This document shows, one piece after another, positions 14,567-40,828 of a stretch of DNA of 64,000 nucleotides. Each line of letters opens with the position of its first letter. Position 1 is the stretch's first letter. Position numbers and translations under genes: made by a program. The notes under the pieces are model-generated. The model was not told where the DNA came from. It ran no database searches and saw only the letters and a program-made list of their open reading frames with translations. The DNA comes from Halobellus sp. LT62 (GTDB lineage Archaea; Halobacteriota; Halobacteria; Halobacteriales; Haloferacaceae), in assembly GCF_037031285.1 (NCBI RefSeq), contig NZ_JAYEZO010000001.1, positions 1,240,001 through 1,304,000 of the forward strand. Direction: 5' to 3'.

Positions 14567-14567
14567 G

Positions 14568-16336: not shown

Positions 16337-16351
16337 ACAACACAACGAGAT

Positions 16352-17977: not shown

Positions 17978-18030
17978 GGCCGTCTCCGACTGTCAAACGT
18001 CTCTGAAATCGAAATAGATCGAATACACCT

Positions 18031-19182
18031 ATGGAATCAGATATACTCACACCGACTGTCGTCCCCGAGGAGGCGCACGAACTGAAAGACCGCGCTCGGT
18101 CGTTCGCGAACGAACGGATGGCCCCGGTCGCGGGCGAGTACTTCGCGTCAGGCGAGTACCCTGTCGACGTCGTCGAGGCCGCCCACGACGCGGGGCTGGT
18201 GGCTCAGGAGATCGACGCCGAGTACGGCGGTCCGGGTCGTTCGCTCGACGAGATCGTCGCGACGGTTGAGGAGTTCTTCCGCGCGGACGCCGGCCTCGGT
18301 CTCGGAATCGTCAGCCAGAGCTTCGGCACCGAGATCCTCCAAGAGTTCGGCACCGAAACGCAGAAGGAGACGTACCTCTCGGCCGTCGCGAACGGAGAAA
18401 AGCGGACCGGGATGGCCATCTCCGAACCCGACACCGGCAGCGATTTGGCGGGGATGGAGACGGAAGCGCGGCTCGAAGACGGCGAGTGGGTACTCAACGG
18501 CGAGAAATACTGGATCGGCAACGGCGTCTCGGGGGATTACATCACCGTCTACGCCCGCACCGAGGACACCGACGACCGTCACAGCAACCACTCGCTGATT
18601 CTCGTGCCGACTGACGCCCCGGGCTACGAGGCCGAGCCGGTCCCCGAGAAGATGGCCTATCGGGCCTCCGAGCAGGCGCACATCGTCTTCGACGACTGCC
18701 GAGTGCCGGCGGAGAACCTCGTGGGCGAGCGCGGGAACGGATTCAAGATGGTCGCGGAGTTCTTCAATACCGGTCGGGTCCGGGTCGCGGCTCACGGGAT
18801 CGGCCTCGCCGCCGCCGCCATCGAGGAGGCGTGGGAGTTCGTCCACGGGCGCGAGGAGTTCGGCCGGTCGATCGGGGACTTCCAATCCGTCCAACACGAC
18901 CTCGCGGAGATGCGGATGGAGTTCGAGAGCGCTCGCGCGCTGCTGTGGCAGGCGGTCGATCACGTGATGGCGGGTGAGGACGCCGAGCGCTGGGCCGCGA
19001 TGGCGAAGGCCAAGGCGACCGAGGTGGCCGCCGAGTGCGCCGAGACGTCGATGAAACTCCACGGGGGACGAGCGCTACTGGACGGCGAGCGGATCACGCG
19101 CGTCTACCGCGACGTCCGGATGCCGATGACCTACGAGGGCGTCGGTGCGATCCAGCGCGACCTGATCTACCGGAACTTCTGA
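18031..19182 (+). CDS. Acyl-CoA dehydrogenase
   Basis: A 383-aa FAD flavoprotein of the acyl-CoA dehydrogenase family that makes 2-enoyl-CoA from acyl-CoA. Recognised features are the AISEPDTGSDLAGM flavin/substrate segment (near 130), a GRSIGDFQSVQHDLAEM segment, and the C-terminal MTYEGVGAIQRDLI with the catalytic Glu. It lies 53 nt after the synthetase on the same strand and is probably the last gene of the operon. The product feeds the HAD-ECH fusion. Chain specificity (short chain or phenylpropanoyl type) cannot be told. Confidence 0.93.
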   Translation: MESDILTPTVVPEEAHELKDRARSFANERMAPVAGEYFASGEYPVDVVEAAHDAGLVAQEIDAEYGGPGRSLDEIVATVEEFFRADAGLGLGIVSQSFGTEILQEFGTETQKETYLSAVANGEKRTGMAISEPDTGSDLAGMETEARLEDGEWVLNGEKYWIGNGVSGDYITVYARTEDTDDRHSNHSLILVPTDAPGYEAEPVPEKMAYRASEQAHIVFDDCRVPAENLVGERGNGFKMVAEFFNTGRVRVAAHGIGLAAAAIEEAWEFVHGREEFGRSIGDFQSVQHDLAEMRMEFESARALLWQAVDHVMAGEDAERWAAMAKAKATEVAAECAETSMKLHGGRALLDGERITRVYRDVRMPMTYEGVGAIQRDLIYRNF

Positions 19183-19330: not shown

Positions 19331-20575
19331 TCAGTAGTTGCCCGTCGACGCGATCGGGGGGGACTCGTGCGGTCCGTACGGCGCGTCGTCGAGGTATTCG
19401 CCGGCGGGTTCGAAGTAATCGGCGAGCGAGGCGGCGACCTCCTTGCGGAGGACGGTGACCGGGGTGTCGCCCTGGAGGTAATCGAGCGCCTGTCCGGCGG
19501 CGGAGATGTTGTACTCGGCGGCGCGCTCGCGACGTGCCGCGTACAGTTCAACCTCGTTGCGAGCGACAGCGGGCTGTTCTGCCCGCGCGGCGACCGCGAT
19601 CGCGGAGGCCGCCTCGTCGGCGTCGGCGACGCAGGAGTTCATCCCGCGCGCGCCGAAGGGAGCCAGCAGGTGTGCGGCCTCACCGGCCAAGAGCACGCGG
19701 CGGTGCTCGTCGACGAACGAGTCGGCGATCACCTGCAGGAACTTGTACGTCGAGGTCCACTGGATGTTGTCGACGTACTCCTCGCCCATAATCTCGCGGA
19801 CGAGCTTTCGCATCTCCTCGTCGCTGGAAATCTCTTCGGGGTCGTCGTCACCGAGACATTGGATGTCGAGCCGCCAGCCGCCCGCGAACGGAACGAGCAT
19901 CACGTTGCGGCCGCCCGCGGCGGGGTCGTCGTAGTGGAAGAGGCGCTCGAAGGGGATCGGTTCCTCCTCGATCGTGTTGCCGTCGAGCGTCTCGACGTCG
20001 ACGATGATAAAGGAGTTCTCCGATTGGTCGCCCTCGAACTCCGATCCGATCTCCTTGCGCACCTGCGAGCCGCCGCCGTCCGCACCGATGAGGTACGGCG
20101 TCTCCCACTCCCGTCCGTCGGTCGTCTCGACGTGGACGCCGTCGGGCGTGGACTCGACGGATTCGACGCCCGCGTCCCAGTGGATCTCGACGCCGAGGTC
20201 CTCGAGCGCCTCGTGCATGTACTTCTCGGTGGTGACCTGCGGGAGACTCGAGAAGTGCGGGAACTCGCCGGTCCCGCCGGGGTTGTCGTAGGTGCGCCGG
20301 AACACCGTCTTGCCGCGCCACATCGTGTGGCGGGTCGGCCAGACGAGGCCCTCCTCGATGAGATCCTTGCCGAGTCCGGGGTAGTTTCGTTCGAGCGTCT
20401 TCAGCGTCGAACCGTGGACGTAGATCGCGCGGCTCCCCGCACGGTCGCGGTCCTCGGAGTCGGCTTCGAGGATCGCCGCGGGGATACCGCGTGCGCGGAG
20501 CGCGAGCGCGGCGGTCATCCCGGTCGGTCCGGCACCGGCGATCAGCACGGGTTGATCGATATCAGTCGAACTCAT
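19331..20575 (-). CDS. FAD-dependent aromatic-ring monooxygenase (PHBH/MhpA fold)
   Basis: A 414-aa class A flavoprotein hydroxylase. Its N-terminal Rossmann motif is VLIAGAGPTGMTAALALRARG, the NAD(P)H/FAD DG region reads IGADGGGSQVRKE, and the second FAD motif is LLAGEAAHLLAPFGARGMN. The last is canonical GDAAH..P.G..G.N except that GD is GE, a conservative change in the ribose-binding Asp. Such enzymes hydroxylate hydroxybenzoates, hydroxyphenylpropionates or salicylate-type substrates. In a window with gentisate dioxygenase the likely product is gentisate or its CoA thioester (inference). It stands alone on the minus strand with a 107-aa unknown gene upstream. Confidence 0.88.
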   Translation of the reverse strand: MSSTDIDQPVLIAGAGPTGMTAALALRARGIPAAILEADSEDRDRAGSRAIYVHGSTLKTLERNYPGLGKDLIEEGLVWPTRHTMWRGKTVFRRTYDNPGGTGEFPHFSSLPQVTTEKYMHEALEDLGVEIHWDAGVESVESTPDGVHVETTDGREWETPYLIGADGGGSQVRKEIGSEFEGDQSENSFIIVDVETLDGNTIEEEPIPFERLFHYDDPAAGGRNVMLVPFAGGWRLDIQCLGDDDPEEISSDEEMRKLVREIMGEEYVDNIQWTSTYKFLQVIADSFVDEHRRVLLAGEAAHLLAPFGARGMNSCVADADEAASAIAVAARAEQPAVARNEVELYAARRERAAEYNISAAGQALDYLQGDTPVTVLRKEVAASLADYFEPAGEYLDDAPYGPHESPPIASTGNY

Positions 20576-24332: not shown

Positions 24333-24628
24333 GTGTGGACTGTGTGTTCGATAATGACGAACGGATAGGAACCGGCGTTCAGCCTGATAGTACCTCTGTG
24401 TACACGACGAACGTGGAAGTCTCCCGTGAGAAGCGGCGGCAAGGAATCCACCGTACGCGAAAATCGGACCGTCTTGGTAACATCCGTACGGTTGTTATGC
24501 ATACCGCGATAATCCCGGTTATTCGATCCTGTCGAACGAATTTTCACCAGTGACGATCGGTGATTCGGGCGTCGCTGTCGACCGCGCACACACGATACTT
24601 ACTTATCCGTCGTCGGACGAGTGCGTGT

Positions 24629-25396
24629 ATGGACGGAGGATCGCACGAGAGTCGAGGGATCAAGTCCGATGAGACGTTATTCGACATCATCGAACACCTT
24701 CGACGCCTCGATGGTGCGGGCGTCACCGAACTCGCCGAGCGACTCGATATCGCCAAGAGCACGGTTCACGGACACCTGACGACCCTCGTCGGTCGCGGGT
24801 TCGTCGTCAAGCGCGGGCGCGAGTACCACTTGGGACTCCGGTTCTTCGAGTACGGCCAGTACGTCCGCGGCCAACTCGACATCTTTCAATCCGGCCTCGC
24901 GGCGGTCGACAGACTCGAACGCGAAACCGGTGAAATGTCGTGGCTCATTACCCATCAGAACGGGAAGGCGATCTACGTGTACGGCCGCGGCGGAAACAAC
25001 GACATCAACGTCAACACGATCCTCGGAACCCGGGATCACATGCACTACAACTCCGGCGGAAAGGCGATTCTCGCACACCTCCCCGATGACGAGGTCGACC
25101 GGATCGTCGATCAGCACGGCCTCCCCTCGCGCACCGAGAACACGATCACCGACCGAAAACGGCTGGACGAGGAACTCAGACAGATCCGCCAGCAGGGCTA
25201 CGCCCTCAATCTCAGCGAGGACTTGGAGGGAATCCAAGCGATCGGCGTTCCGCTCACCGTCGCCGGCGAGATCCAAGGCGCGCTGAGCGTCGCGGGCCCC
25301 GCCCACCGGATGTCCAAAGAGCGCTGCGAGGGAGAGATCCTCGACCACCTGCGGGCGGCGACAGACGAGATCGACCTCACGATCGCGTACCGGTAG
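24629..25396 (+). CDS. IclR family transcriptional regulator (second copy)
   Basis: A 255-aa IclR protein with an N-terminal winged HTH (VTELAERLDIAKSTVHGHL) and a C-terminal effector domain (MHYNSGGKAILAHL, SVAGPAHRMS). The track-style start at 24560 is discarded in favour of ATG 24629, because TACTTATC (about 24599-24606) lies at leaderless spacing. About 296 nt upstream hold no other gene. It is a candidate controller of the gentisate/CoA genes between 26.5 and 43 kb (inference). Confidence 0.92.
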   Translation: MDGGSHESRGIKSDETLFDIIEHLRRLDGAGVTELAERLDIAKSTVHGHLTTLVGRGFVVKRGREYHLGLRFFEYGQYVRGQLDIFQSGLAAVDRLERETGEMSWLITHQNGKAIYVYGRGGNNDINVNTILGTRDHMHYNSGGKAILAHLPDDEVDRIVDQHGLPSRTENTITDRKRLDEELRQIRQQGYALNLSEDLEGIQAIGVPLTVAGEIQGALSVAGPAHRMSKERCEGEILDHLRAATDEIDLTIAYR

Positions 25397-26512: not shown

Positions 26513-28060
26513 ATGAAACTTGGTGACGCCCTCGCTCGCACGGTCCGCTGTTATCCCGACAAACTCGCGCTCGTAACCGACGACGGCCGTTCGTTCACGT
26601 ACGACGAACTGGACGAGCGGAGCACCCGCTTGGCGAACGCGCTCACCGATCGGATCGGCTCCGGCCGGTGTGCCGTTCTCACGGTCAACCACGTCTCGGC
26701 GATCGAGTCGATGTGGGCGGGGAACAAGCGCGGACTCGCGACGGTGCAGCTCTCGTATCGGGCTACCGTCGGCGAACTGAAGGAGATGGCCGAGACCGCC
26801 GAGGCCGAGGCGCTCCTCTTCGACGACCACAACGCCGACGACGCGCTCGAACTCCTCGATCGCGGGGCGTTCGACGTCGCGATCCACGCCGGCGACCGCG
26901 ACATCGACCACGACAGCGTCGAGTCCTACGAGGCCGTCCTCGACGCCTCCGAGCCCACCCCCGACGACGCGCATCCGATCGACGACGAGTGTGCGGTCTT
27001 ACACACCAGCGGAACGACGAGCGTTCCCAAGACGGTCAAATTCGATCAGGAACAGCTCTGGTACGGCGCGATCCAGGGAATTATGGAGCACGGTATCGAC
27101 GAGACCGACACCGCGCTGTGCACGTCGCCGTGGTACCATATGGTCACGACCGACGCGTGGCTCTATCCGCACTTCGTCGCGGGCGCGACGGTGGTGTTGC
27201 ACTCGACGTTCGACCCCGAGGAGGCGCTCGAACTCATCGAGGCACACGAGGTGACCGGGCTGCTCGGCGTGCCGACCCAATTGAAGGCGCTCAACGACGT
27301 CCAGCGAGCGAAGGAGACGCCGTACGACACCGAGTCGCTGTCGTACATCCGCACCGGCGGAGCCATCGTCACTGAGAACCTCATCGAGGCGACCCACGAG
27401 TACCTGAGCGAGCACGTCTACAACACCTACGGGATGACCGAGGCGGGCCCCGACCTCACGTTCGCCCACCCGGAGGTCCAAGCGGACCACCCCGGAACGA
27501 TCGGCAAGGAGGCGTTCTCGTGGGAGATCCGCGTCGTCGAGTCGGTTCCCGTCAGCGAACACCCGGATCCGGAAGCGACGGTCGATCCCGGCGAACGCGG
27601 CGAGATCATCGCCCGCGGTCCGGGAATGTCGAACGAGTATATCGACAACGACGAGGCCACCGAGAAGTCCTACTTCGACGGCTGGCTCCGAACCCGCGAC
27701 GTCGCCCGCGTCGACGAGGACGGCTACCTCTACATCGTCGACCGCGTCGACAACATGATCAACAGCGGGGGCGAGAACGTCTATCCGGCCGAGGTCGAGC
27801 GGGTTCTCGGAAACCATCCCGAGGTGGAGGAGGCGTGCGTCTTCGGCCTCGACGACGAGGACTGGGGACAGATCGTCACCGCCGTCGTCGTGACTGAGAG
27901 CGACCTCACGGGGGAGGACCTCGACGAGTACTGCCTCCAACACGACGGCCTCGCGGACTTCAAGCGCCCGCGGAAGTACGCGCTCACTGCCGAAACCCTC
28001 CCGCGCACCGACACCGGAACGATCATCCGCAACGACTTGATCGAGAAGCACTTCTCCTAG
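26513..28060 (+). CDS. AMP-binding (acyl-CoA synthetase family) protein with altered catalytic motifs
   Basis: A 515-aa ANL-superfamily protein. Present are YNTYGMTEAGP (A5), WLRTRDVARVDEDGY and NMINSGGENVYPAEVE (A8). Two key motifs are changed. The P-loop reads LHTSGTTSVPKTV instead of TSGTTGxPKG. The C-terminal A10 motif reads TDTGTIIRNDL, where the catalytic Lys of TGK is Thr. The DNA reads gga acg atc, so it is not a translation slip. Adenylation may be weak or lost; it may act as a thioesterifying half-enzyme or on an unusual acid. It is flanked by a UbiA-like gene and an SLC13-like carrier. Confidence 0.85.
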   Translation: MKLGDALARTVRCYPDKLALVTDDGRSFTYDELDERSTRLANALTDRIGSGRCAVLTVNHVSAIESMWAGNKRGLATVQLSYRATVGELKEMAETAEAEALLFDDHNADDALELLDRGAFDVAIHAGDRDIDHDSVESYEAVLDASEPTPDDAHPIDDECAVLHTSGTTSVPKTVKFDQEQLWYGAIQGIMEHGIDETDTALCTSPWYHMVTTDAWLYPHFVAGATVVLHSTFDPEEALELIEAHEVTGLLGVPTQLKALNDVQRAKETPYDTESLSYIRTGGAIVTENLIEATHEYLSEHVYNTYGMTEAGPDLTFAHPEVQADHPGTIGKEAFSWEIRVVESVPVSEHPDPEATVDPGERGEIIARGPGMSNEYIDNDEATEKSYFDGWLRTRDVARVDEDGYLYIVDRVDNMINSGGENVYPAEVERVLGNHPEVEEACVFGLDDEDWGQIVTAVVVTESDLTGEDLDEYCLQHDGLADFKRPRKYALTAETLPRTDTGTIIRNDLIEKHFS

Positions 28061-30429: not shown

Positions 30430-31179
30430 TCAGTTCTCGGCGATCGCGTCCGAGAGGTCCTTGCCCGCGTGTTCACCGAGATACGCCTCGATGACCGTGT
30501 CGTCGTTTTGGATCTCCTCGGGCGTCCCCTCGGCGATTAGCTTCCCGTTGTCGAGCACCATCACGCGCTCTGAGACGCTCATCAGCGCGCGCATCACGTG
30601 GTCGATGAGGAACACCGTCTTGCCCTCGTCGATGATGTCGCCGACGAGGTTGATGATACCCTCCGTCTCCTCGGGGTCGAGGCCGCCGGCGACCTCGTCG
30701 AACAGCACCATCTCGGGATCTGTCGCGAGCACGCGCGCGATCTCGAGGCGTTTGAGCTGTCCGACGCTGAGTTCGCCGGGGTCGGCGTGCATCTGTTCTT
30801 CGAGGCCGACGAACTCGATCATCTCCGCGGCGCGCTCGCGCGGGTCGTCGAACTTGCGGCCGCCGAACGACGCGCCGACGGTCACGTTTTCGAGCAGCGA
30901 GAGGCTGCCGAACGGGCGGACGATCTGGTGGGTCTTCGCCATCCCGCGGTGACAGATCTCGTGTTGGGACTGTCCGGTGATCTCCTCGCCGTCGAAGAAC
31001 ACCTCGCCCTCCGTCGGGGGATGGACGCCGGTGATCGTGCGGAACAGCGTGCTCTTCCCGGCCCCGTTCGGTCCGATGAGTCCGACGGCCTCGCCGCGTT
31101 CGACGGTGAAGGAGACGTCCTCGATGGCGACGACCCCACCGAACTTCTTCGTCAGCCCTCGACCTTCCAGTAACGTCAT
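30430..31179 (-). CDS. livG: ABC transporter ATP-binding protein, LivG type (system 2)
   Basis: A 249-aa LivG ATPase with Walker A GPNGAGKST, signature LSVGQLKRLEIARVL and Walker B VLFDEVAGGL. It is the only LivG for the second uptake system, whose other genes are 35681-39691, so it has been split off by about 4.5 kb holding the CoA ligase/thioesterase/gentisate dioxygenase genes. The start at 31179 is chosen over ATG 31200 because TTTATC (about 31206-31211) lies at leaderless spacing. Confidence 0.92.
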   Translation of the reverse strand: MTLLEGRGLTKKFGGVVAIEDVSFTVERGEAVGLIGPNGAGKSTLFRTITGVHPPTEGEVFFDGEEITGQSQHEICHRGMAKTHQIVRPFGSLSLLENVTVGASFGGRKFDDPRERAAEMIEFVGLEEQMHADPGELSVGQLKRLEIARVLATDPEMVLFDEVAGGLDPEETEGIINLVGDIIDEGKTVFLIDHVMRALMSVSERVMVLDNGKLIAEGTPEEIQNDDTVIEAYLGEHAGKDLSDAIAEN

Positions 31180-31380
31180 TATCGTTCGATATCCAAGCAA
31201 CGATGATAAACTTACGGAATACGCCGACGCGTGGCATTCGAGGCGGCGACGCGTCTCGGCGGTCAGGCCGTGCGACGACGGTGACGCCGCGCTGGATCGT
31301 CGGTCGAGTTGGATCGCTCGTACAGCCAGCCTCGCACGCAGGGGGAAAACGCTTTGAGGACGTTCGGTAAATGTGCGCGT

Positions 31381-32814
31381 GTGACTCTCAGACAGCTATT
31401 CGACCCCTCGGCGATCGCCGTCATCGGCGCGTCGGCGACCGAGGGAAAGATCGGATACGAAGCGATGGCGAACGCCGCGATCTTCGACGGGCCAGTGTAC
31501 CCGGTGAACCCGTCGACGGAGGGCGAACTGTTCGGCGCGGATTTCGTCGCCTCGGTGACCGAGATCGATGACGACGTCGACCTCGCGCTCTGCTGTGTGC
31601 CGGGTCCGGCGATGCCGGATGTCCTCGAAGAGTGCGGCGAGGCGGGGATCGGCGCGGCCGTCATCTACGCCAGCGGATTCGCCGAAGCGGGCGGAAAGGG
31701 CGAAGAGCTTCAGGAGGCGATCGTCGAGATCGCCGAGGAACACGACATCTCGCTGCTCGGCCCGAACACCAGCGGGTTCATGGTTCCCGAGATAAACCTC
31801 CGCTGCTCGTTCGCCAGCGGGGTCGAAGAGGTGCCGGAGGGCAACGTCGCGGTCGTCGCACAGAGCGGCGGCGTCGGACTGGTCTTGGCGTTCCAGTCCC
31901 GACGGCAGGGCCGCGGCGTCTCCGCGCAGGTCGGCTTGGGCAACCGCGCGAACGTCGGGTTCGCCGAGGCGATCGAGTACTTCGACGGCGACGAGCGGAC
32001 GGACGCGATCGTCCTCCACGTCGAGGGGACCGACGACGGGCGACGGATGCTGGAAGCCTGCCGCGAGAGTGACACGCCGGTCGTCGCCTACAAGGTCGGA
32101 CAGTCGGACGTCGGCGACTTCGCGGAGTCGCACACGGGCGCGCTCACGGGCGATCACGAGCTATACACCGCCGGGTTCGCCCAGTACGGCGTTCCCACGG
32201 TCGACGCGACCGACGACCTCCTCGACGCCGCGGCGGCGCTCGGGAACTCCCCGACTCCCGATGGCCCGAACGTCGGCGTCGTCACCGCGCAGGCGGGCCC
32301 CGGCATCATCATCACCGACCGGATCCAGCGTGCGGGGGGTCGACTGCCGGAACTCACCGAGAACACCCAAGAGCGCGTCGACGAGATCCTCCCCGGGATC
32401 ACCTACGCCGACAACCCCGTCGACACCGGCCGACCGATGCCGGAGTTCGGCGAGATCGTCACGGCGGTCGCCGAGGACGAACGCGTCGACATCGTGCTCG
32501 TCTACGAGCTGTTCGAGGCCGCGTTGGGCTTTCCGGTCGACGAACTGGACGGCCTCGCCGAGCGGGTGGACAAGCCGGTCCTGTTCGCGACCGAGGGGAT
32601 CGAGGAGGACCTCGCCGGCCAGCGCGACGCGCTCACGGACGTCGGCGTCCCGGTCTTCGAGACCCCCGAGCGCGCCGCCGACGCCGCGGGGGCGCTCGCC
32701 CGCTACGCGCTTCTCAACGGCGACGAGGCGCTCGCGGACGGCGGTGCGCGCACCGACAGCGGCGCGGCACCACATCGAACGGTCATCGACGAGGAGGTGA
32801 CCGCCGATGAGTGA
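31381..32814 (+). CDS. ADP-forming acyl-CoA synthetase, alpha-type subunit
   Basis: A 477-aa protein of the NDP-forming acyl-CoA synthetase family. It has an N-terminal CoA-binding Rossmann domain (SAIAVIGASATEGKIGY), two succinyl-CoA-synthetase-like domains, and the phosphohistidine loop ESHTGALTG (His251). It interconverts acyl-CoA + ADP + Pi with acid + CoA + ATP together with the beta subunit, whose ATG overlaps by 8 nt. The GTG start at 31381 begins right at the conserved domain; an in-frame TTG at 31309 gives a non-conserved extension. It could activate aromatic or branched acids, or recover ATP from acyl-CoA. Confidence 0.92.
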   Translation: MTLRQLFDPSAIAVIGASATEGKIGYEAMANAAIFDGPVYPVNPSTEGELFGADFVASVTEIDDDVDLALCCVPGPAMPDVLEECGEAGIGAAVIYASGFAEAGGKGEELQEAIVEIAEEHDISLLGPNTSGFMVPEINLRCSFASGVEEVPEGNVAVVAQSGGVGLVLAFQSRRQGRGVSAQVGLGNRANVGFAEAIEYFDGDERTDAIVLHVEGTDDGRRMLEACRESDTPVVAYKVGQSDVGDFAESHTGALTGDHELYTAGFAQYGVPTVDATDDLLDAAAALGNSPTPDGPNVGVVTAQAGPGIIITDRIQRAGGRLPELTENTQERVDEILPGITYADNPVDTGRPMPEFGEIVTAVAEDERVDIVLVYELFEAALGFPVDELDGLAERVDKPVLFATEGIEEDLAGQRDALTDVGVPVFETPERAADAAGALARYALLNGDEALADGGARTDSGAAPHRTVIDEEVTADE

Positions 32815-33514
32815 CGCCGTTCCGGAGCCGATCCAGTCCGCGCGCGCGGACGGCCGAGAGACGCTGACGGAGGCCGAGGGGAAAGCGCTCCTCGCGTCGG
32901 TCGGCATCGACACGCCCTCGTTCGAGGTGTGCGGAGACGTCGACGACGCCGTCGAGGCGGCCGAGCGAATCGGTTACCCCGTCGTCGCGAAGGTGTCGTC
33001 GCCGTCGGTGACGCACAAGAGCGACTGGGCGGGCGGCGTCGGCGTCGCGGTCGGACTCGACTCGGAGGCGGCGGTCCGCGACGCCGCCGCGGCGATCTTC
33101 GAGGCGGCGGGGGAGGAGAACGTCGCGGCCGACGTCCTCGTCGAGGAGGCAATGGACCTCGATCGCGGTACTGAGGTGATCGTCGGCGGGCTCCGCGACC
33201 CGTCGTTCGGTCCCGTCGTCCTCACCGGTCTCGGGGGCGTCTTCACCGAGATTTTCGAGGACACCAGTCATCGGATCGCCCCGGTCGACCGGGCGGAAGC
33301 CCGCGCTGCGATCGAGGGGCTGCAGTCTGTCCCGCTCCTGCAGGGGTATCGCGGCAGCGAGCCGGCTGACGTCGACGCGCTCGCCGACGCCATCGCGGCG
33401 GTCGGTGACCTCGTCGTCGACCACCCGATCGCGGAACTCGACGTCAATCCAGTTCTTGCGACATCCGATGGAGTGATGGCACTCGACGCACTCGTCGTAC
33501 TGGAGGACCGATAA
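32807..33514 (+). CDS. ADP-forming acyl-CoA synthetase, beta subunit (ATP-grasp)
   Basis: A 235-aa ATP-grasp domain subunit. VTHKSDWAGG carries the second conserved phospho-accepting His (His70), and FGPVVLTGLGGVFTEIFED is the ATP-grasp core. It starts inside the alpha gene (8-nt overlap) and its TAA overlaps the ATG of the thioesterase gene, so three products are translationally coupled. Separate alpha and beta genes are seen in some archaea, whereas many haloarchaea have a fused enzyme. Confidence 0.92.
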   Translation: MSDAVPEPIQSARADGRETLTEAEGKALLASVGIDTPSFEVCGDVDDAVEAAERIGYPVVAKVSSPSVTHKSDWAGGVGVAVGLDSEAAVRDAAAAIFEAAGEENVAADVLVEEAMDLDRGTEVIVGGLRDPSFGPVVLTGLGGVFTEIFEDTSHRIAPVDRAEARAAIEGLQSVPLLQGYRGSEPADVDALADAIAAVGDLVVDHPIAELDVNPVLATSDGVMALDALVVLEDR

Positions 33515-33915
33515 TGTTCGAACGCATCTGGACTGTCCGCTTCTCGGACACCGACCCGCACGGCATCGCTCACTACCCGCGTATCGTCGACGCGCTCCAC
33601 GAGACCTCGGATATGTTTATGCAGGAGATCGGCTTCCCGTTCTGGGAGCTCACAAGCGACTACGACTTCGGCTTCCCGCTGGTGGATATGCAGTTCGAGT
33701 TCAAGGCACCGGTGAAAGCCGGCGACGACATTCGAGTCACGCTGACACCCGACCCGAGCACCCGCGCCGTCCGGTTCGAGTACGAGGCGTACAAGGGCGA
33801 CACCCTCGCGTTCTCGGGGTACGAACAGCGCGTCTGTGCGGAGACCGGCGGCGGCGGCGCGGTCGAGATCCCCGACGAGATCCGCGAGAAATTCGTCGAA
33901 TACGCCGAAGAGTAG
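33514..33915 (+). CDS. Hotdog acyl-CoA thioesterase (4-hydroxybenzoyl-CoA thioesterase/YbgC type)
   Basis: A 133-aa single hotdog domain with the family N-terminus VRFSDTDPHGIAHYPRIVDAL, where the second Asp is catalytic in this family. It is coupled to the beta subunit by a TAATG overlap. Having a CoA ligase and a thioesterase in one operon fits a pathway in which an aromatic acid is modified as its CoA thioester and then released, for example as gentisate for the dioxygenase 464 nt downstream (inference). Confidence 0.9.
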   Translation: MFERIWTVRFSDTDPHGIAHYPRIVDALHETSDMFMQEIGFPFWELTSDYDFGFPLVDMQFEFKAPVKAGDDIRVTLTPDPSTRAVRFEYEAYKGDTLAFSGYEQRVCAETGGGGAVEIPDEIREKFVEYAEE

Positions 33916-33983: not shown

Positions 33984-34160
33984 ATGGCGGAGTTCGAGAA
34001 CCCATACGCGACGGAGGATCCGTTCGTCGAGGCGCACTTCGAATGTCTGAATTGCGGCGGAAAGCTCTGGGAGTACGGGATTCAGCGACGGATGGTGTGC
34101 GAGGACTGCCGGTCGCTGTTCAAAACCGAGGAAATCTTCGAGGCGCAGGCCTCCGCGTAA
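33984..34160 (+). CDS. 58-aa zinc-ribbon small protein
   Basis: A short gene of 58 codons plus stop. The product starts MAEFENPYATEDPF and carries two Cys pairs (FECLNCGG and VCEDCRS) 17-18 residues apart, a typical zinc-ribbon spacing, followed by an acidic tail. A TATA-like CTTTTAGG (33953-33960) lies at leaderless spacing before the ATG. Codon composition is like that of the neighbouring genes. It sits between the thioesterase and gentisate dioxygenase genes. Haloarchaea have many such CxxC micro-proteins; its function is unknown, and regulatory or protein-binding roles are guesses. Confidence 0.75.
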   Translation: MAEFENPYATEDPFVEAHFECLNCGGKLWEYGIQRRMVCEDCRSLFKTEEIFEAQASA

Positions 34161-34378: not shown

Positions 34379-35455
34379 ATGGCACAGCAAGAGCCGGAGG
34401 AACTCCTAGAGATGAGTTCCGAGACTCGAAGTATCTTGGAGGAGCACAGCCTCCAGCCGCTCTGGGAAGTCGAAGACGACATGGGCCACGCCCTCGACGA
34501 CCCAGAGGCGGACATCTGGAAGTGGGAAGACGTCAAGGAGGCGATCGACGCGATCGAGCGCGACGTCCCGATCGCCGACCTCCCGCCGGGATTCCAGCGC
34601 CGGGTCGCCGTGCCGATCAACGCCGCGCACGCGATCTCGAACACGATCTACGTCGGGATCCAGACGGTCTCGCCGGGAGAGACAGCGCCGTCGCACCGCC
34701 ACGGGGCGAACGCGCTGCGCTTTACGATCGACGGCCACGAGGATATGAAGACGGTCGTCGCCGGCGAGGAGTTCCCGATGAAGGACAACGACCTAGTCAC
34801 CACCCCGCAGTGGGAGTGGCACGACCACGTCAACGAGAGCGACGAGACCGCCGCGTGGCTCGACGTGCTCGATCTGCCGCTCGTCCTCGACTCGCTGAAC
34901 GCGAAGAACACGTTCGAGTACCACGAACTCGAACGCCAGCCGGTGACGAAGAGCCAAGGCTACTGGGCCTCGCAGTACGGTCGCGGCCGACCGCAGGAAG
35001 AGGTGAAGCAGGACGGCATTCCCGGGCCGTTCGAGGGCATCCGCGACGCGACGCCGCCGTACCGGTTCCAGTGGGAGGAGATGGTCGAGTCGCTCCGCCA
35101 GCGCGCCGACAACGACGATCCCGATCCGAACGACGGTTACAGCCTCTCGTACGTCAACCCCGCCACGGGCAAGCCGCCGCTGTTCCCGACGATGTCGTTC
35201 CGCGCGCAGTTGCTGTTAGAAGAGACCGATCCGCACTTCCACAACGCGACCGAGGTGTACTTCGTCATCGACGGCGAGGGCGCGACGCACGTCGGCGACG
35301 AGGCGCTCGAATGGAGCCAGTGGGACATCTTCGTCGTCCCACCGGACGAGATCCACCACCACGAACCCGACGGCGAGGCGAAGCTCCTCGGGATGACCGA
35401 CCGCCCGGTGTTCGAGGCGTTCAACCTCTACGCCGAGGCCGAACCCTCCTCGTAA
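34379..35455 (+). CDS. gdoA: Gentisate 1,2-dioxygenase (bicupin)
   Basis: A 358-aa bicupin Fe(II) dioxygenase opening the ring of gentisate (2,5-dihydroxybenzoate) to maleylpyruvate. The first cupin carries PGETAPSHRHGANALRF (two His ligands of the family) and the downstream WEWHDHVNESDE and WLDVLDLPLV segments characteristic of gentisate dioxygenases. The second cupin spans about residues 255-345 (EETDPHFHNATEVYFVIDG). Length fits the family. The start at 34379 has TTATTATC (34350-34357) at leaderless spacing. A haloarchaeal gentisate dioxygenase is known from a Haloferax strain degrading aromatic acids. Confidence 0.9.
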   Translation: MAQQEPEELLEMSSETRSILEEHSLQPLWEVEDDMGHALDDPEADIWKWEDVKEAIDAIERDVPIADLPPGFQRRVAVPINAAHAISNTIYVGIQTVSPGETAPSHRHGANALRFTIDGHEDMKTVVAGEEFPMKDNDLVTTPQWEWHDHVNESDETAAWLDVLDLPLVLDSLNAKNTFEYHELERQPVTKSQGYWASQYGRGRPQEEVKQDGIPGPFEGIRDATPPYRFQWEEMVESLRQRADNDDPDPNDGYSLSYVNPATGKPPLFPTMSFRAQLLLEETDPHFHNATEVYFVIDGEGATHVGDEALEWSQWDIFVVPPDEIHHHEPDGEAKLLGMTDRPVFEAFNLYAEAEPSS

Positions 35456-35680
35456 GAATCTCTGGAGGGCCTCGGTTCGACGTTCCGGATGGGGTCACCC
35501 ACTCGTTCTCGATCCGCTTGGGAGACCGGTGGCGGACGGACCCTCACAGGCCGTTATACGACCCTCGTGACCGGCTGAATCTGTCGTCTGCGACGAGGGT
35601 AGAACGTATCGTAAACGCCGATAGACTCTGCGTGGAACCGTATACTTTTTTATTGTATTATCATTATTGTGCCACACGGT

Positions 35681-37015
35681 ATGGCTCGTGATGACACATC
35701 GATTCGACGACGAAGGTATCTAAAGGGTGCCGGAGCGACCGGAACTCTCGCAATCACCGGACTCGCCGGTTGTACGCTCGGCGGGGGCGGCGACGACGGT
35801 GGCGACAGTGGGGGCGACAGTGGGGGCGACAGCGGCGGCGACTCCGACAGCAGCGGGGACAGCGGCGGCGACAGCGGTGGAGACGCGACGCCGCTGACGA
35901 TCGCCGGCACAGTCCCGGATTCGGGATCGTTCTCCTCGCTCGGTGAGGACCTCCGCCGCGGCTACGAACTCGGCGTCGCGAGGATGAACGAGGAACTCGA
36001 CCGCGAGGTTGAGCTCATCCTCCGCGACGACGAGAGCGACGCGCAGACGCTCCGCGAGCAGCTTCAGGCGATCGTGAGCAACAACGACGTCAATATGATC
36101 TGGGGGAGCTTCTCCAGCCTGCTCGTCACCGCCGGGAGCGCCTTCGCGGAGAATCAAGGACTGCCGTTCCTCGGGATCGCCTTCGCGTACGAGGAGCCGC
36201 ACCGGAACGACAACTACGAGTGGACGTTCGCGCCGTTCCCGAAATCGCGTGACGTCGCCCGCTCGACGCTCGGCACGCTCGAACTCATCCCGGAGGAAGA
36301 GCGTCCGACCAACGTCGGGATCTGGGAGCCGAACTCCGGGTGGGGCGCAGAGCAGGCCCAGTACTGGGAGGACGTCCTCGGCGAAGCGGGCTACGATGTC
36401 GTGATGCGCGAGGTCTTCGAGCTCGGCTCCTCGGACTTCTCGACGCTCATCTCGCAGGCCGAAAGCAACGAGGTCGAGGTGCTGCTTTCGAACCCGACGC
36501 CGCCGGGCGGCATCACCGCCGTCAACCAGATGCGCGACAACAACTGGGCCCCGCAGATGCTGAAGTTCGTCCGCGGTGCCGATCCGTCCGCGTGGTGGTC
36601 CGCGCTCGGCGAAGACGGAGCCTACGCGCTGATGTGTCCGGGGTGGGTCCCGGGCCTCACCGGCAACGGCAACGCGGAACTCAGAGAGGCGTTCTTCAAC
36701 GAGTACGACACCGACGCCGAATTTATGCCCGCGAACGTCGGCGGCTCGTACAACCTGACGCAGGTCGCCCAGCAGGCCGTCGAGGCGGCCGGATCCGTCG
36801 ACCCTACGGCCGTTCGCGACGCGCTCCGGAGCGAGGAGTTCGAGACCGTGATCGGCACGTTCAGCTTCGAGGAGAACGGGCTGCCGGCGGAGGGCGAACT
36901 GACCGCACCGACCGGCCAGTGGTGGGAGGGTGCACAGCGACTCGCGTACCCGGACACCGACTCCGAGCAGGCGATCGACTTCCAGTACCCGATCCCACCG
37001 TGGAGCGAGCGATGA
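35681..37015 (+). CDS. LIV/HAAT-type ABC transporter solute-binding lipoprotein (system 2)
   Basis: A 444-aa Tat lipoprotein with Arg9-Arg12 then YLKGAGATG, and a lipobox ending at C31 (GLAGC). A (GGDS)n linker of about 30 residues is followed by a type 1 periplasmic-binding fold. The ATG at 35681 is preferred to the GTG at 35669, because TTTTTTATTG (about 35646-35656) lies at the right distance. It begins the block LivK-LivH-LivM, 35 nt before LivH. It lies just behind gentisate dioxygenase, so an aromatic acid substrate is plausible (inference). Confidence 0.93.
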   Translation: MARDDTSIRRRRYLKGAGATGTLAITGLAGCTLGGGGDDGGDSGGDSGGDSGGDSDSSGDSGGDSGGDATPLTIAGTVPDSGSFSSLGEDLRRGYELGVARMNEELDREVELILRDDESDAQTLREQLQAIVSNNDVNMIWGSFSSLLVTAGSAFAENQGLPFLGIAFAYEEPHRNDNYEWTFAPFPKSRDVARSTLGTLELIPEEERPTNVGIWEPNSGWGAEQAQYWEDVLGEAGYDVVMREVFELGSSDFSTLISQAESNEVEVLLSNPTPPGGITAVNQMRDNNWAPQMLKFVRGADPSAWWSALGEDGAYALMCPGWVPGLTGNGNAELREAFFNEYDTDAEFMPANVGGSYNLTQVAQQAVEAAGSVDPTAVRDALRSEEFETVIGTFSFEENGLPAEGELTAPTGQWWEGAQRLAYPDTDSEQAIDFQYPIPPWSER

Positions 37016-37049: not shown

Positions 37050-37931
37050 ATGGTCTTCAGCGATCTCGCCACGCAAACGATCGTGAACGGGCTGTTGCTC
37101 GGGGGCATCTACGCCCTCGCAGCCTTGGGTCTCTCGCTCGTCTTCGGGATTATGGACATCGTGAACCTCGCGCACGGCCATATGCTGATGGTCGGCGCGT
37201 ACATCGCGATCCTCGTCTTCGCGGCCACGGGCATCACGCCGCTCGTGGGGATGGTGCTCGCGATGGCGTTGATGTTCGGACTCGGCGTCCTGCTGCAGAA
37301 GGTGCTCCTGAAGCACGTCGTCGACGAGGGGCTCGAACAGCCGATCATCATCCTGTTCGGCCTCGCGCTGATCCTGCAGAACCTCGGTCGCGTCATCCTC
37401 GGCGGCGACGCCCGAACCGCGGACATCGGTATCCCCGGAAACGGGTTCGACATCGGCATCGCGTTTATGTCGTTCCCTCGGACGGTGACGTTTATCGTGG
37501 CGGTCCTCCTCATCGCCGCGACGTGGGCGTTCCTGCAGTACACGAAGACGGGACAGGCCATCCGCGCGACGGCACAGAACCGCACGGCTGCGAAGCATAT
37601 GGGGATCAACACCGATCAGATCTACGTCATCACGCTCGGAATCGGGACGGCGCTCGCCGGCGCGGCCGGTGCGCTGCTCTCGATGCTGTTCCCCATCGAC
37701 CCGTACGTCGGGTGGTCCTACCTGCTGAAGACGTTCGCCGTGGTCGTTCTCGGCGGCGTCGGCAGCGTGCTCGGGACGCTCGTCGGCGGCCTCGTGCTCG
37801 GGGTCTCCGAGAACCTCGGCGCGCTGTATCTCGGTGGCGGCTATCGCAACGTCGTGAGCCTGCTCATCTTCCTCGCCGTGCTGCTCGTCAAACCCGAGGG
37901 CCTGTTCGGCGGCTCCGGGGGTGGTGAGTAA
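37050..37931 (+). CDS. livH: ABC transporter permease, LivH type (system 2)
   Basis: A 293-aa polytopic LivH permease. It opens with NGLLLGGIYALAALGLSLVFG, followed by NLAHGHMLM, and has the coupling loop RTAAKHMGINTDQIY. It is typical of the family, more so than the system 1 LivH. It overlaps LivM by TAATG. Confidence 0.93.
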   Translation: MVFSDLATQTIVNGLLLGGIYALAALGLSLVFGIMDIVNLAHGHMLMVGAYIAILVFAATGITPLVGMVLAMALMFGLGVLLQKVLLKHVVDEGLEQPIIILFGLALILQNLGRVILGGDARTADIGIPGNGFDIGIAFMSFPRTVTFIVAVLLIAATWAFLQYTKTGQAIRATAQNRTAAKHMGINTDQIYVITLGIGTALAGAAGALLSMLFPIDPYVGWSYLLKTFAVVVLGGVGSVLGTLVGGLVLGVSENLGALYLGGGYRNVVSLLIFLAVLLVKPEGLFGGSGGGE

Positions 37932-38953
37932 TGGCGTTCATCGAGAGGGCTCCCGGCGAGTCGGTCGCGACTGACCGTCGCGTACTCGCAGTCGCGGCGC
38001 TCGCCGTGCTGTGGCTCATCACCGTCCCGTTCACGACGACCGACTCGCTGACGGGGCTCATCCTGACTGGCCTCGTCTTCGTGATGCTCGGCGTTTCGTG
38101 GAACCTGCTCGCCGGCTACGCGGGACAGATCTCGCTGGGACACGCGGCCTTCTTCGGAATGGGCGCGTTCGTCACCGCGTGGCTGACGACCCCGACGGCC
38201 GGCGGCTTCCCGGAGTCGATCCAGTTACCCGTCATCCCCGCGATGCTGATCGGCGCGCTCGCAGCGGCGCTGATCGCGCTCGTCATCGGGCCGATCATCT
38301 TCCGACTGAGCGGACACTACTTCGCCATCGGAACGCTCGCACTCGCCGCCGTGATCGAACTGATTATGCTCGATCGCCGGGATCTGACCGGCGGAGCGAC
38401 CGGCTACTACATCCAAGCGGATCTCTCACTCGGCGAGGTGGTCTCGCACGGCGACGTGATGTTCTACCTGACGCTCATCGCGACGATCGCGACCGTCGTT
38501 ATCACGTATCTCATCGTCCGCGGCCCGACCGGGCTCGGGATGAAGGCAATCCACGACGACGAGGACGCCGCGAGCAGTCTCGGCGTCAACCCGCTGAAGT
38601 ACAAGATGTACGCGTTCGTCGTCTCCTCGTTCTTCGCTGGGCTGGCCGGCGCGCTGTACGGCCACTACACGCTGTACATCAACCCGCAGTCGACGCTCGC
38701 GGTGACGTGGACGATCGACGCACTGGTCGTCGTCATCCTCGGCGGAATGGGGACGTTCTCCGGCCCGATCTTCGGGGCCGGACTGTTCCTGCTGTTGGAC
38801 AACGGCCTCTCGGCCATCGTCAGCGGTTACTCCGAGGCGGTCGAAGGGATCCTCATCATCCTCTTCATTATCTTCCTCCCAACGGGACTCTATGGACTAT
38901 TCAAAGAGTATCTCATCGAGGAAACCGACGGAAGCGACGGCGCTCACGACTGA
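37931..38953 (+). CDS. livM: ABC transporter permease, LivM type (system 2)
   Basis: A 340-aa polytopic LivM permease with the conserved SWNLLAGYAGQISLGHAAFF segment near residue 55 and the coupling loop AIHDDEDAASSLGVNPLKYK. It is translationally coupled to LivH. The LivF ATPase gene is convergent, 33 nt beyond the stop. Confidence 0.93.
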   Translation: MAFIERAPGESVATDRRVLAVAALAVLWLITVPFTTTDSLTGLILTGLVFVMLGVSWNLLAGYAGQISLGHAAFFGMGAFVTAWLTTPTAGGFPESIQLPVIPAMLIGALAAALIALVIGPIIFRLSGHYFAIGTLALAAVIELIMLDRRDLTGGATGYYIQADLSLGEVVSHGDVMFYLTLIATIATVVITYLIVRGPTGLGMKAIHDDEDAASSLGVNPLKYKMYAFVVSSFFAGLAGALYGHYTLYINPQSTLAVTWTIDALVVVILGGMGTFSGPIFGAGLFLLLDNGLSAIVSGYSEAVEGILIILFIIFLPTGLYGLFKEYLIEETDGSDGAHD

Positions 38954-38986: not shown

Positions 38987-39691
38987 TCACGCGCCGAGAT
39001 ACGATTCTTCGACGCGTTTGTCCTTCGCGAGCTCTTCGGCCGTTCCGGAAAGCTCGATCTCGCCGGTTTTGATGACGTAGCCGCGGTCGGCGACACGGAG
39101 GGCGTTGTAGATGTCCTGTTCGACGAGCAGCACGGTCGTCCCCTCGTCGTTGATCCGCTGGATCGCCTCGAACACGTCGTCGACGAGAACGGGCGCGAGT
39201 CCGAGGCTCGCTTCGTCGAGAAGGAGGAGGTCCGGATCGCTCATCAGCCCGCGACCGATCGCGAGCATCTGCTGTTCGCCGCCCGAGAGCGTCCCCGCCC
39301 GCTGTTTGGATCGCTCTTCGAGCCGCGGGAAGATGTCGTAGACGCGTTGGAGGCGATCTTCCATTCCGCTCCGATCCAGATACGCGCCGAGTTCGAGGTT
39401 CTCTTTGACGGTGCTCTCGGTGAACACCTCTCTTCCCTCCGGAACGTGAGCGACGCCTTTCGCGACGACCTCTTCGTGCGGCAGGTCGCCGATCGACTCG
39501 CCCTTGTATCGGACTTCGCCGTCCATCGGGGTGAGATCCCCGCAGATCGTTTTCAGCGTCGTCGTCTTCCCCGCGCCGTTCGCGCCGAGCAACGCCACTG
39601 TCTCCCCCTCGTCGACGGAGAGGCTCACGTCCCAGAGAACCTGCACGTTGCCGTACGCGACGTCTATCCCATCTACTTCGAGCAGTGACAT
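38987..39691 (-). CDS. livF: ABC transporter ATP-binding protein, LivF type (system 2)
   Basis: A 234-aa LivF ATPase with Walker A GANGAGKTT, signature LSGGEQQ and Walker B LLLLDEASLGLAP. It faces the permease genes tail to tail. With LivG at 30430 it would power system 2. The ATG at 39691 begins the family core directly. Confidence 0.93.
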   Translation of the reverse strand: MSLLEVDGIDVAYGNVQVLWDVSLSVDEGETVALLGANGAGKTTTLKTICGDLTPMDGEVRYKGESIGDLPHEEVVAKGVAHVPEGREVFTESTVKENLELGAYLDRSGMEDRLQRVYDIFPRLEERSKQRAGTLSGGEQQMLAIGRGLMSDPDLLLLDEASLGLAPVLVDDVFEAIQRINDEGTTVLLVEQDIYNALRVADRGYVIKTGEIELSGTAEELAKDKRVEESYLGA

Positions 39692-39857: not shown

Positions 39858-40736
39858 TTACTCCTGTCCGCCCTTCGTGACGTTGGCGTCGGCGTAGCTG
39901 ACGTCGCGACCGGTGACGTCGACGGTCATCGAGCCGACGTCTTCGATCTCGGCGTCGATCGTGTCGCCGTCGTGGAGTTCGCTCACGCCCTCGGGCGTGC
40001 CCGTCGTGATGACGTCGCCGACCTCCAGCGTCGCGCCCAGCGACGCGTACTGGACGATGTCCGCGCAGGTGTAGACCATATCGCCGGTGTTCTCGTACTG
40101 GCGGCGCTCGCCGTTCAGCTGCAGTTCCATCTGGAGGTCCTGGGGGTCGTCGATCTCGTCGGCGGTGACGACGCACGGGCCGATGACCGTGAACGTGTCG
40201 TAGGATTTCCGGTTGGAGCGGTCTTGATCGCCGCGGAGCGAGATATCGAGCAGGATCGTGTATCCGAAGATGTGGTCCCACGCCTCCTCGGCGGAGACGT
40301 CTTTGGCCTCCTCGCCCATCACGAACGCGAGTTCGACCTCGTGGTCGGTGCGGCGGTCGGTAAAGGGGAGTTCGATCCCGCGGTCGGGGCCGACGACGCT
40401 GGAGGGGGCCTTCAGGAAGTAGCCCTTGTCCTTGATCGAGAACCACTCCTCTGTGGTGATGTCCTTGTCCGCGATGGCCTCCTCGATGTGGTTCTCGTAG
40501 TTCAGCGGCGCGGCGATGACCTTCCCGGGGCGGCCGACGGGCGAGCCGATCTCGACGTCGTCGACGTCGTAGTCCGGCTTCTCGTCCTCGTACTCGGCGG
40601 CGTCGTAATCGCCTTCGATGTACTCGACGAGCGGTTCGTCGCCCTCGAGGCCGAGTCGGTCCGAGAGGTCGATGACGCCGCTGCCGTCCTCTGTGAGCAG
40701 TCCGAGCTGGTTGTCGTCGTAGCGGACGAATCGCAT
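39858..40736 (-). CDS. Fumarylacetoacetate hydrolase family protein (probable fumaryl/maleylpyruvate hydrolase)
   Basis: A 292-aa FAH-fold enzyme. The metal motif is DHEVELAFVMG (ExE), with RSNRKSYDTFTVIGP and TTGTPEGV, as in fumarylpyruvate hydrolases and related C-C hydrolases. It would split the isomerised or unisomerised ring-cleavage product of gentisate into pyruvate and fumarate or malate. The start at 40736 is chosen; TTTTATG on the minus strand (about 40761-40767) is its TATA box, and the in-frame start at 40763 falls inside that box. No maleylpyruvate isomerase gene is seen beside it. Confidence 0.88.
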   Translation of the reverse strand: MRFVRYDDNQLGLLTEDGSGVIDLSDRLGLEGDEPLVEYIEGDYDAAEYEDEKPDYDVDDVEIGSPVGRPGKVIAAPLNYENHIEEAIADKDITTEEWFSIKDKGYFLKAPSSVVGPDRGIELPFTDRRTDHEVELAFVMGEEAKDVSAEEAWDHIFGYTILLDISLRGDQDRSNRKSYDTFTVIGPCVVTADEIDDPQDLQMELQLNGERRQYENTGDMVYTCADIVQYASLGATLEVGDVITTGTPEGVSELHDGDTIDAEIEDVGSMTVDVTGRDVSYADANVTKGGQE

Positions 40737-40828
40737 ACGCGGACCATCGGCGGAATCCCCCATAAAAGATGCCTTTCGGGTCGAGCGGGCGAAACGCGGC
40801 GCGCTTCCCGTGCGACCCGGTCGTCGGC

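Follow-up and report, generated by a model that had tools for sequence, protein, structure and literature searches.

The 64,000-nucleotide stretch of the Halobellus sp. LT62 genome analysed here (the window, part of a genome of 3.2 Mb) contains, at positions 31381 to 33915, three tightly packed genes that encode the alpha- and beta-subunits of a predicted ADP(NDP)-forming acyl-CoA synthetase and a hotdog thioesterase (Table 1; other genes of the window are referred to by their first coordinate). The alpha-subunit contains a CoA_binding_2 (PF13380, E 1.6e-19) and a Succ_CoA_lig domain (PF13607, E 7.4e-37) and the beta-subunit an ATP-grasp_5 domain (PF13549, E 1.2e-65), all above the family cut-offs, and both have retained their phospho-accepting histidine. 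His251 is invariant among 13 aligned alpha-subunits and His70 among nine aligned beta-subunits, and both residues align with the HTG/HKS motifs of relatives of known structure. By these domains and by the histidines, the latter of which had been recognized in an original prediction made from the DNA sequence, the two proteins classify as an ADP(NDP)-forming acyl-CoA synthetase, for which an ADP- and phosphate-dependent activity is predicted. The highest-scoring model for the alpha-subunit, the equivalog TIGR02717 of acetate--CoA ligase alpha-subunits, is matched with 361 bits, below its cut-off of 567.15. The third protein carries a 4HBT_2 domain (PF13279, E 3.2e-11) and its predicted model shows a plain hotdog fold (pLDDT 89.6), in line with its initial description as a protein resembling 4-hydroxybenzoyl-CoA thioesterases. 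The alpha and beta genes share the 8 nt ATGAGTGA, and the stop codon of beta meets the start codon of the thioesterase gene in TAATG, so that both junctions can be read in the sequence as originally described.

These junctions are old and the arrangement is conserved. We have searched 292 genomes of the same class, which were drawn evenly and are at least 90% complete, with cut-offs of E <= 1e-60 for the hydroxylase and the dioxygenase introduced below and of at least 59% and 45% identity for the alpha-subunit and the thioesterase, respectively. A beta gene is located within 200 nt at 38 of the 40 places that contain an alpha gene, and the thioesterase gene is also there at 23 of these 38, while it is sited elsewhere or was not found at the remaining ones. 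An overlap between alpha and beta is possible in all 36 measured pairs and amounts to 8 nt in 31, and where the thioesterase gene directly follows beta (n=21) a possible overlap of 1, 4 or 8 nt is found in 18 cases and a distance of 1 nt in three, counts that are biased in this direction by a script which took the in-frame start nearest to an 8-nt overlap or, in the case of the thioesterase gene, the one closest to the stop codon. The four places outside this measurement are the window itself, G035, G186, where beta is in two out-of-frame pieces, and G187, where alpha and beta are on separate contigs. Independent annotation shows the 8-nt overlap of alpha and beta in three species; the beta and thioesterase genes are separated by 1 nt in Halorussus vallis and by 2 nt in Haladaptatus salinisoli, and share 4 nt in Haloarcula halophila. 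On plasmids of the same three genera, the order of alpha, beta, thioesterase, a small protein and dioxygenase is retained; three other plasmid loci that bear a dioxygenase have no pair, thioesterase or hydroxylase nearby.

The context of the three genes is that of a gentisate cluster. In a sequence search of the Protein Data Bank, the thioesterase is best matched by 5wh9, titled as the gentisyl-CoA thioesterase BH1999 (E 1e-13, 27% identity), and its Asp14 aligns with the equivalent of Asp16 of that protein. The comparison of its model with 5wh9 gives a Z-score of 16.7, which ranks tenth; the top match scores 1.1 higher and other hotdog thioesterases reach the same value, and the fold alone thus does not single out this relative. 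In Bacillus halodurans, the gene of BH1999 is part of a gentisate cluster, and its description names residues Asp16 and Asp31 (PMC516016). Downstream, 34379 encodes a bicupin protein whose best NCBIfam model is that of gentisate 1,2-dioxygenase (TIGR02272), matched with 201 bits and thus below the curated cut-off of 442.1, and which in combination with its location is probably a gentisate dioxygenase. The flavoprotein 19331, located 11 kb upstream of the pair next to a beta-oxidation block (12620-19182), is likely a hydroxylase of aryl-CoA. Its best NCBIfam model is NF006002, with NF006101, the model for salicylyl-CoA 5-hydroxylase (SdgC), not being among the best 25 of 62 matches, and it is 50% identical to a relative from Brevibacillus panacihumi. 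Together with the AMP-forming ligase 26513, the window contains all four components of a set consisting of ligase, hydroxylase, thioesterase and gentisate dioxygenase.

The association of these genes is reflected in their distribution among the 292 genomes. The hydroxylase is found in 45 and the dioxygenase in 44, with 43 containing both (G081 and G183 have only the former and G143 only the latter), and for 34 of the 41 pairs located on one contig the distance between the two genes is below 20 kb. The alpha-subunit is present in 40 genomes, 39 of the 45 with a hydroxylase compared to one of 247 others, and the thioesterase in 39 (38 of 45 compared to one of 247), and since the genomes are related, Fisher values for this co-occurrence overstate the number of independent events. 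Within the 43 genomes, the pair is absent from four (G130, G221, G246, G255) and the thioesterase from five (G017, G061, G098, G221, G246), leaving three with the pair but no thioesterase and two with the thioesterase but no pair. In G130, G246 and G255 no split beta-subunit was found at E <= 1e-40; G221 has a thioesterase relative of 41% identity 40 kb away and G246 an orphan alpha-subunit. Such orphans, which are 50-58% identical to the alpha-subunit of the window and have no adjoining beta gene, were observed in 19 of the 45 hydroxylase genomes and none of the 247 others (examples are L068:16162-17571, L066:8023-9354, L071:16965-18296, L094:4403-5725 and L212:7879-9222), and in five that were aligned the histidine is retained and the loop following it is altered.

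This distribution bears on the possibility that acetyl-CoA or a branched-chain acyl-CoA derived from beta-oxidation is the substrate of the pair, with a housekeeping thioesterase and an incidental location. A beta-oxidation block is indeed found in the window and beside a related synthetase of Massilia, and the acetate--CoA ligase model is the one that the alpha-subunit matches best, even if below its cut-off. However, the split alpha-subunit is nearly confined to hydroxylase genomes, relatives of beta occur in 257 of the 292 genomes, a fused synthetase of 700 residues is encoded elsewhere in the same genome, and beta-oxidation genes are absent from the listed neighbours of the synthetase in three annotated operons of the salicylate type described below. 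We consider this explanation very improbable and have, in light of the fused synthetase, set aside a role of the pair as housekeeping acetate enzyme.

An AMP-forming ligase is a constant feature of the cluster genomes, which the ADP-forming pair is not. Ligases of the 26513 type (E <= 1e-110), whose representative in the window has its best matches among CoA-ligase models, were found in 36 of 46 cluster genomes and in none of 34 control genomes, and in all but one of the 36 the dioxygenase gene is no more than 15 kb away. An AMP-forming ligase is encoded in each of the 43 genomes with hydroxylase and dioxygenase, being of the 26513 type in 36, of the type of 16352 in five (64-83% identical to the latter) and of a third type in two (G152, G190; 27%), and in all seven genomes without the 26513 type the alternative ligase was found in the stretches around the cluster. 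The location of the 16352-type ligase beside beta-oxidation genes suggests that aryl-CoA can also come from phenylpropanoid side chains, which would not require a fresh ligation. It was originally proposed that the pair itself acts as the ligase, in which case it would activate an aromatic acid such as 4-hydroxybenzoate or benzoate, 19331 would hydroxylate the thioester and the thioesterase alone would free gentisate. Such a role is compatible with a reaction that is reversible in principle, with the overlap of the genes of the pair and the thioesterase and with five genomes that retain the pair but have no 26513-type ligase. It is opposed by the presence of an AMP-forming ligase in all 43 genomes, by the four genomes without the pair and by the exchange of the two enzymes in bacteria.

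This exchange is apparent in the surroundings of hydroxylase and synthetase relatives. From a scan of named genomes we have taken the best 80 of 295 hydroxylase relatives, of which 14 belong to Bacillota loci. Nine of the 14 contain the thioesterase, nine the gentisate dioxygenase and seven both, eight an AMP-forming ligase (E < 1e-50) and six all three, as exemplified by Brevibacillus panacihumi and Alicyclobacillus, the former also with beta-oxidation-type proteins beside the hydroxylase, as read from the translations. No synthetase was detected in any of the 14 loci, and a search of whole genomes, which left out L162 and L180, yielded no match at E <= 1e-40 in 10 of 12, the other two having stretches of only 36-37% identity. 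The opposite is found where synthetase relatives are present. In the actinomycete Kibdelosporangium (L156), a hydroxylase of the 19331 type overlaps a fused synthetase, which is followed by an AMP-forming ligase with a dioxygenase about 6 kb away, and no thioesterase was found at the locus. In the operons of further relatives, the hydroxylase resembles salicylyl-CoA 5-hydroxylases and is accompanied by an AMP-forming enzyme and a fumarylacetoacetate (FAA) hydrolase. Such operons are located on the plasmids L007, L009, L189 and L190 and account for all seven further matches in 197 genomes from the class to which Kibdelosporangium belongs, and in three plasmid operons the genes of synthetase and hydroxylase share 8 nt. 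The hydroxylase was assigned to this type at 12 loci, at L007 and L205 by model match and at ten by 46-66% identity to the protein of L007; NF006101 is the first match in the two former (412 and 374 bits), below a cut-off of 1078 that applies to a bifunctional protein. Gentisate-like clusters with a synthetase were also found in Rhizobium (L205) and Massilia (L010). Altogether, 14 bacterial synthetase loci contain an AMP-forming ligase in each case and a dioxygenase in 13 (none in L202, and with the copy of L205 cut by the edge), and a thioesterase in none when searched with two queries at E <= 0.01, from which a thioesterase of another family or a distant one would escape. The same two queries do match in nine of the 14 Bacillota loci. 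Since AMP-forming ligases are found in all 43 haloarchaeal genomes and the pair seems to accompany or replace the thioesterase in different lineages, we regard its function as activating ligase as unlikely.

The related synthetases raise another possibility, namely that an AMP-forming enzyme starts the formation of the thioester and the synthetase completes it by converting aryl-AMP to aryl-CoA, a division of labour that has been proposed for salicylate degraders. The AMP-forming enzyme of L007 has its best match with the model of 2,3-dihydroxybenzoyl-adenylate synthase (593 bits, below the cut-off of 724), a family whose members do not necessarily use CoA, and a review has the bacterial synthetase make salicylyl-CoA after a salicylyl-AMP step (PMC4600096). 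Yet the ATP-grasp half and its histidine are kept in the alignments, features that a transfer from aryl-AMP would not need, and 13 of the 14 synthetases from bacterial gentisate loci, all except that of L198, contain an HKS/HKT motif. Moreover, CoA-ligase models give the best matches to the window ligase, and in Rhizobium the enzyme adjoining the synthetase passes the cut-off of the benzoate-CoA ligase family (522 bits compared to 375), and the synthetase of this locus should thus not be needed for thioester formation. In our view, completion of the thioester is improbable.

The kinship between the synthetases of archaeal and bacterial gentisate clusters is apparent in a tree of 38 alpha-subunits, where the 31 gentisate-linked rows are located on one side of a branch with support of 100/99. 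The opposite side comprises no more than seven rows, some of which have long branches, and the distant rows L185, L186 and L188 had been dropped beforehand. Around the non-gentisate rows L206-L209 no match to hydroxylase, dioxygenase, ligase or thioesterase was found in stretches of 13 kb; for L187 and L210 the stretches cover 4 kb. Both the 19331 type and the salicylyl-CoA 5-hydroxylase type belong to FAD_binding_3, and since these subfamilies, which presumably act on different substrates, share the synthetase, their common thioester would be gentisyl-CoA, if their names hold. The notion that every hydroxylase relative is catabolic was rejected, as 65 of the 80 are from actinobacterial loci without matches to gentisate dioxygenase or thioesterase, several of them on short contigs, which were kept out of the counts on exchange. 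These relatives (L008, L104-L126 and similar ones) mostly follow two AMP-binding proteins with no gentisate genes, in one annotated case alongside pabB, a class IV aminotransferase and several AMP-binding enzymes, and they are perhaps hydroxylases of aminobenzoyl-thioesters in natural-product synthesis.

The gene patterns, with a dioxygenase in 43 of the 45 hydroxylase genomes and with thioesterase and dioxygenase combined in half of the Bacillota loci, place the pair and the thioesterase in a route with a thioester-level step in the conversion of an aromatic compound, which is well supported and retains this part of the original interpretation. It is very probable that this route passes through gentisyl-CoA. 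An aromatic acid would be supplied as CoA thioester in one of two ways, by ligation through the AMP-forming enzyme 26513 or by shortening of a phenylpropanoid-type side chain in beta-oxidation (12620-19182), and would be hydroxylated by 19331, most likely from 4-hydroxybenzoyl-CoA to gentisyl-CoA with a migration of the thioester group (NIH shift). This substrate is suggested by analogy to work on Brevibacillus and to an archaeal report of 2002. The latter reportedly described the turnover of 4-hydroxybenzoate with intramolecular migration. According to a later study, this turnover leads to gentisate in Haloarcula D1 (PMC10815724). Gentisyl-CoA would then be converted to gentisate by two parallel enzymes expressed from coupled genes, the ADP-forming pair, which would regain one ATP in the reaction of gentisyl-CoA, ADP and phosphate to gentisate, CoA and ATP, and the hotdog thioesterase, which would catalyse the irreversible release. 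Gentisate would finally be cleaved by 34379 and the product processed by 39858.

Several considerations lead us to regard the pair as an enzyme that probably releases CoA while conserving ATP. In the salicylate-type operons, the release of CoA is the step and the synthetase the gene that are left over. Synthetase and thioesterase were never found together in the bacterial loci examined. In haloarchaea, acetate is activated by an AMP-forming and formed by an ADP-forming enzyme. Pyrococcus enzymes of the synthetase family are described as converting acyl-CoA to acid and ATP (PMC3942289). We assign a probability of about 0.5 to the view that the pair constitutes an ATP-conserving gentisyl-CoA release enzyme with the thioesterase as its irreversible parallel, and we propose, somewhat more tentatively, that a dedicated family of ADP-forming gentisyl-CoA synthetases in Halobacteria, Actinomycetota and Pseudomonadota replaces or backs up the thioesterase to recover ATP when aromatic compounds are degraded aerobically as CoA thioesters.

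Several points weigh against this assignment. The synthetase family is reversible and the sequence does not fix the direction. Both enzymes are kept in 36 of the 43 genomes with hydroxylase and dioxygenase, and G221 and G246 have neither by the thresholds used. AMP-binding proteins are common, with 5 to 39 candidates per genome, and the third-type ligases are thus weak evidence for activation by an AMP-forming enzyme, and where the 16352 type is the sole ligase of the cluster, as in five genomes, the pair could activate free hydroxybenzoates. The exchange of synthetase and thioesterase is based on few events in a handful of lineages: the contrast between the bacterial loci (Fisher p 0.0006) ignores relatedness, at five of the 14 Bacillota loci the stretch examined contains no detected thioesterase, some stretches being short, and the Massilia synthetase is found with beta-oxidation genes and no hydroxylase was seen. 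In the thioesterase, the second aspartate is missing, with His29 at the position of Asp31 in BH1999, and we thus liken the protein to BH1999 in function but do not place it in the same subfamily. The review cited above assigns thioester formation to the bacterial synthetase, and the strain Sphe3 cured of the L007 plasmid is stated to grow on 4-hydroxybenzoate at similar rates (PMC10815724). The L007 operon is thus dispensable for this compound in that strain, which fits salicylate as its substrate and does not support 4-hydroxybenzoate.

The cluster provides candidate genes for each step of the haloarchaeal route. If the pair works towards the acid, there is no futile cycle between synthetase and thioesterase, which would explain the joint production of an apparent ligase and a hydrolase. 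In this case, thioester-level hydroxylation in aerobes would not have to waste the thioester bond, the energy balance would change and aromatic CoA pathways would be cheaper than assumed. Among the open-licence matches listed in a literature search, considered by their titles, the starts of their abstracts and term counts, no paper names the haloarchaeal genes or an ADP-forming gentisyl-CoA enzyme.

The module is surrounded by further genes (Table 1). The small CxxC protein between thioesterase and dioxygenase has no match in Pfam (E 0.001) or NCBIfam (E 1e-8) and is possibly a metal-binding helper or regulator. At 39 of 41 loci, a relative of it is encoded no more than 700 nt from the dioxygenase gene. 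The transporter genes near the pair are placed as in a branched-chain-type ABC transporter. A UbiA-like membrane protein (25494-26390; 30.7 bits, below the Pfam cut-off) adjoins the AMP-forming ligase, and genes annotated as UbiA are found at the matching place in the Haloarcula and Haladaptatus clusters. The beta-oxidation block, with its own AMP-forming ligase and acyl-CoA dehydrogenase, suggests a feed of phenylpropanoids or phenylpropionate into the gentisate route. The genome of the window contains second, more divergent copies of the ligase (51% identity, G000:C1:1886814-1888331) and the thioesterase (39%, 1924315-1924698) about 36 kb apart, and comparable extra copies are present in some genus-mates.

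Table 1. Genes of the synthetase-thioesterase module and its surroundings in the window.
Feature	Position	Strand	Properties and basis
3-Hydroxyacyl-CoA dehydrogenase/enoyl-CoA hydratase fusion	12620..14566	+	PF02737, PF00725, PF00378
Thiolase-like protein	14568..15758	+	PF22691, PF00108
Second AMP-forming ligase, within beta-oxidation block	16352..17977	+	PF00501; related ligases in five genomes without 26513 type
Acyl-CoA dehydrogenase	18031..19182	+	PF00441, PF02770, PF02771
FAD-dependent monooxygenase, putative aryl-CoA hydroxylase	19331..20575	-	PF01494; co-occurrence; tree
IclR-type regulator	24560..25396	+	PF01614, PF09339
AMP-forming acyl/aryl-CoA ligase, putative activating enzyme	26513..28060	+	PF00501, PF13193; distribution in cluster and control genomes
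ABC ATPase upstream of alpha	30430..31200	-	Gene order only (Haloarcula halophila cluster)
Alpha-subunit of predicted ADP(NDP)-forming acyl-CoA synthetase	31381..32814	+	GTG start, stop 32812-32814, 477 aa, His251; PF13607, PF13380; relatives 4xyl_A, 2csu_A
Beta-subunit (ATP-grasp)	32807..33514	+	ATG start, 235 aa, His70; PF13549; relative 4xyl_B
Hotdog thioesterase, putative gentisyl-CoA thioesterase	33514..33915	+	ATG start, 133 aa; PF13279; best PDB sequence match 5wh9
Small protein adjoining gentisate dioxygenase	33984..34160	+	58 aa, CxxC...CxxC
Putative gentisate 1,2-dioxygenase (bicupin)	34379..35455	+	TIGR02272 best NCBIfam model; cupin domains
Substrate-binding protein of ABC transporter	35669..37015	+	Gene order only: same place in annotated Haloarcula halophila cluster
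ABC permease 1	37050..37931	+	Gene order only (Haloarcula halophila cluster)
ABC permease 2	37931..38953	+	PF02653
ABC ATPase	38987..39691	-	Gene order only (Haloarcula halophila cluster)
Fumarylacetoacetate-hydrolase family protein, putative fumarylpyruvate hydrolase	39858..40763	-	PF01557

Among systems that have been described, the pair resembles the archaeal ADP-forming acyl-CoA synthetases, such as ACS1 and ACS2 of Pyrococcus furiosus and the Korarchaeum protein of 4xyl, in its split into alpha and beta, the CoA-binding and ATP-grasp folds and both phospho-histidines, but differs in its location in an aerobic gentisate cluster with thioesterase and hydroxylase and in its score below the acetate--CoA ligase alpha cut-off. 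The thioesterase shares with BH1999 (5WH9), its best solved sequence relative, the hotdog fold, the gentisate gene cluster and the first aspartate, and is distinguished from it by the low identity of 27%, the replacement of Asp31 by His29 and the overlap of its gene with a synthetase gene. The phgABC module of Brevibacillus (Molecular Microbiology, 2018) reportedly converts 4-hydroxybenzoate to gentisate with migration of the carboxyl group. It is similar in its AMP-forming ligase, flavin hydroxylase and thioesterase, a set that is also found at the Brevibacillus panacihumi locus with its 50% identical hydroxylase; the kinship described here is to a genus-mate rather than to the characterized proteins, and the window cluster contains the ADP-forming pair in addition. 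Finally, the sdg module for salicylate of Actinomycetota, with its salicylyl-CoA 5-hydroxylase, unites a related synthetase, an AMP-forming enzyme and a gentisate dioxygenase in one operon, and differs from the cluster of the window in its hydroxylase from another FAD_binding_3 subfamily, its fused synthetase and the absence of a detected thioesterase.

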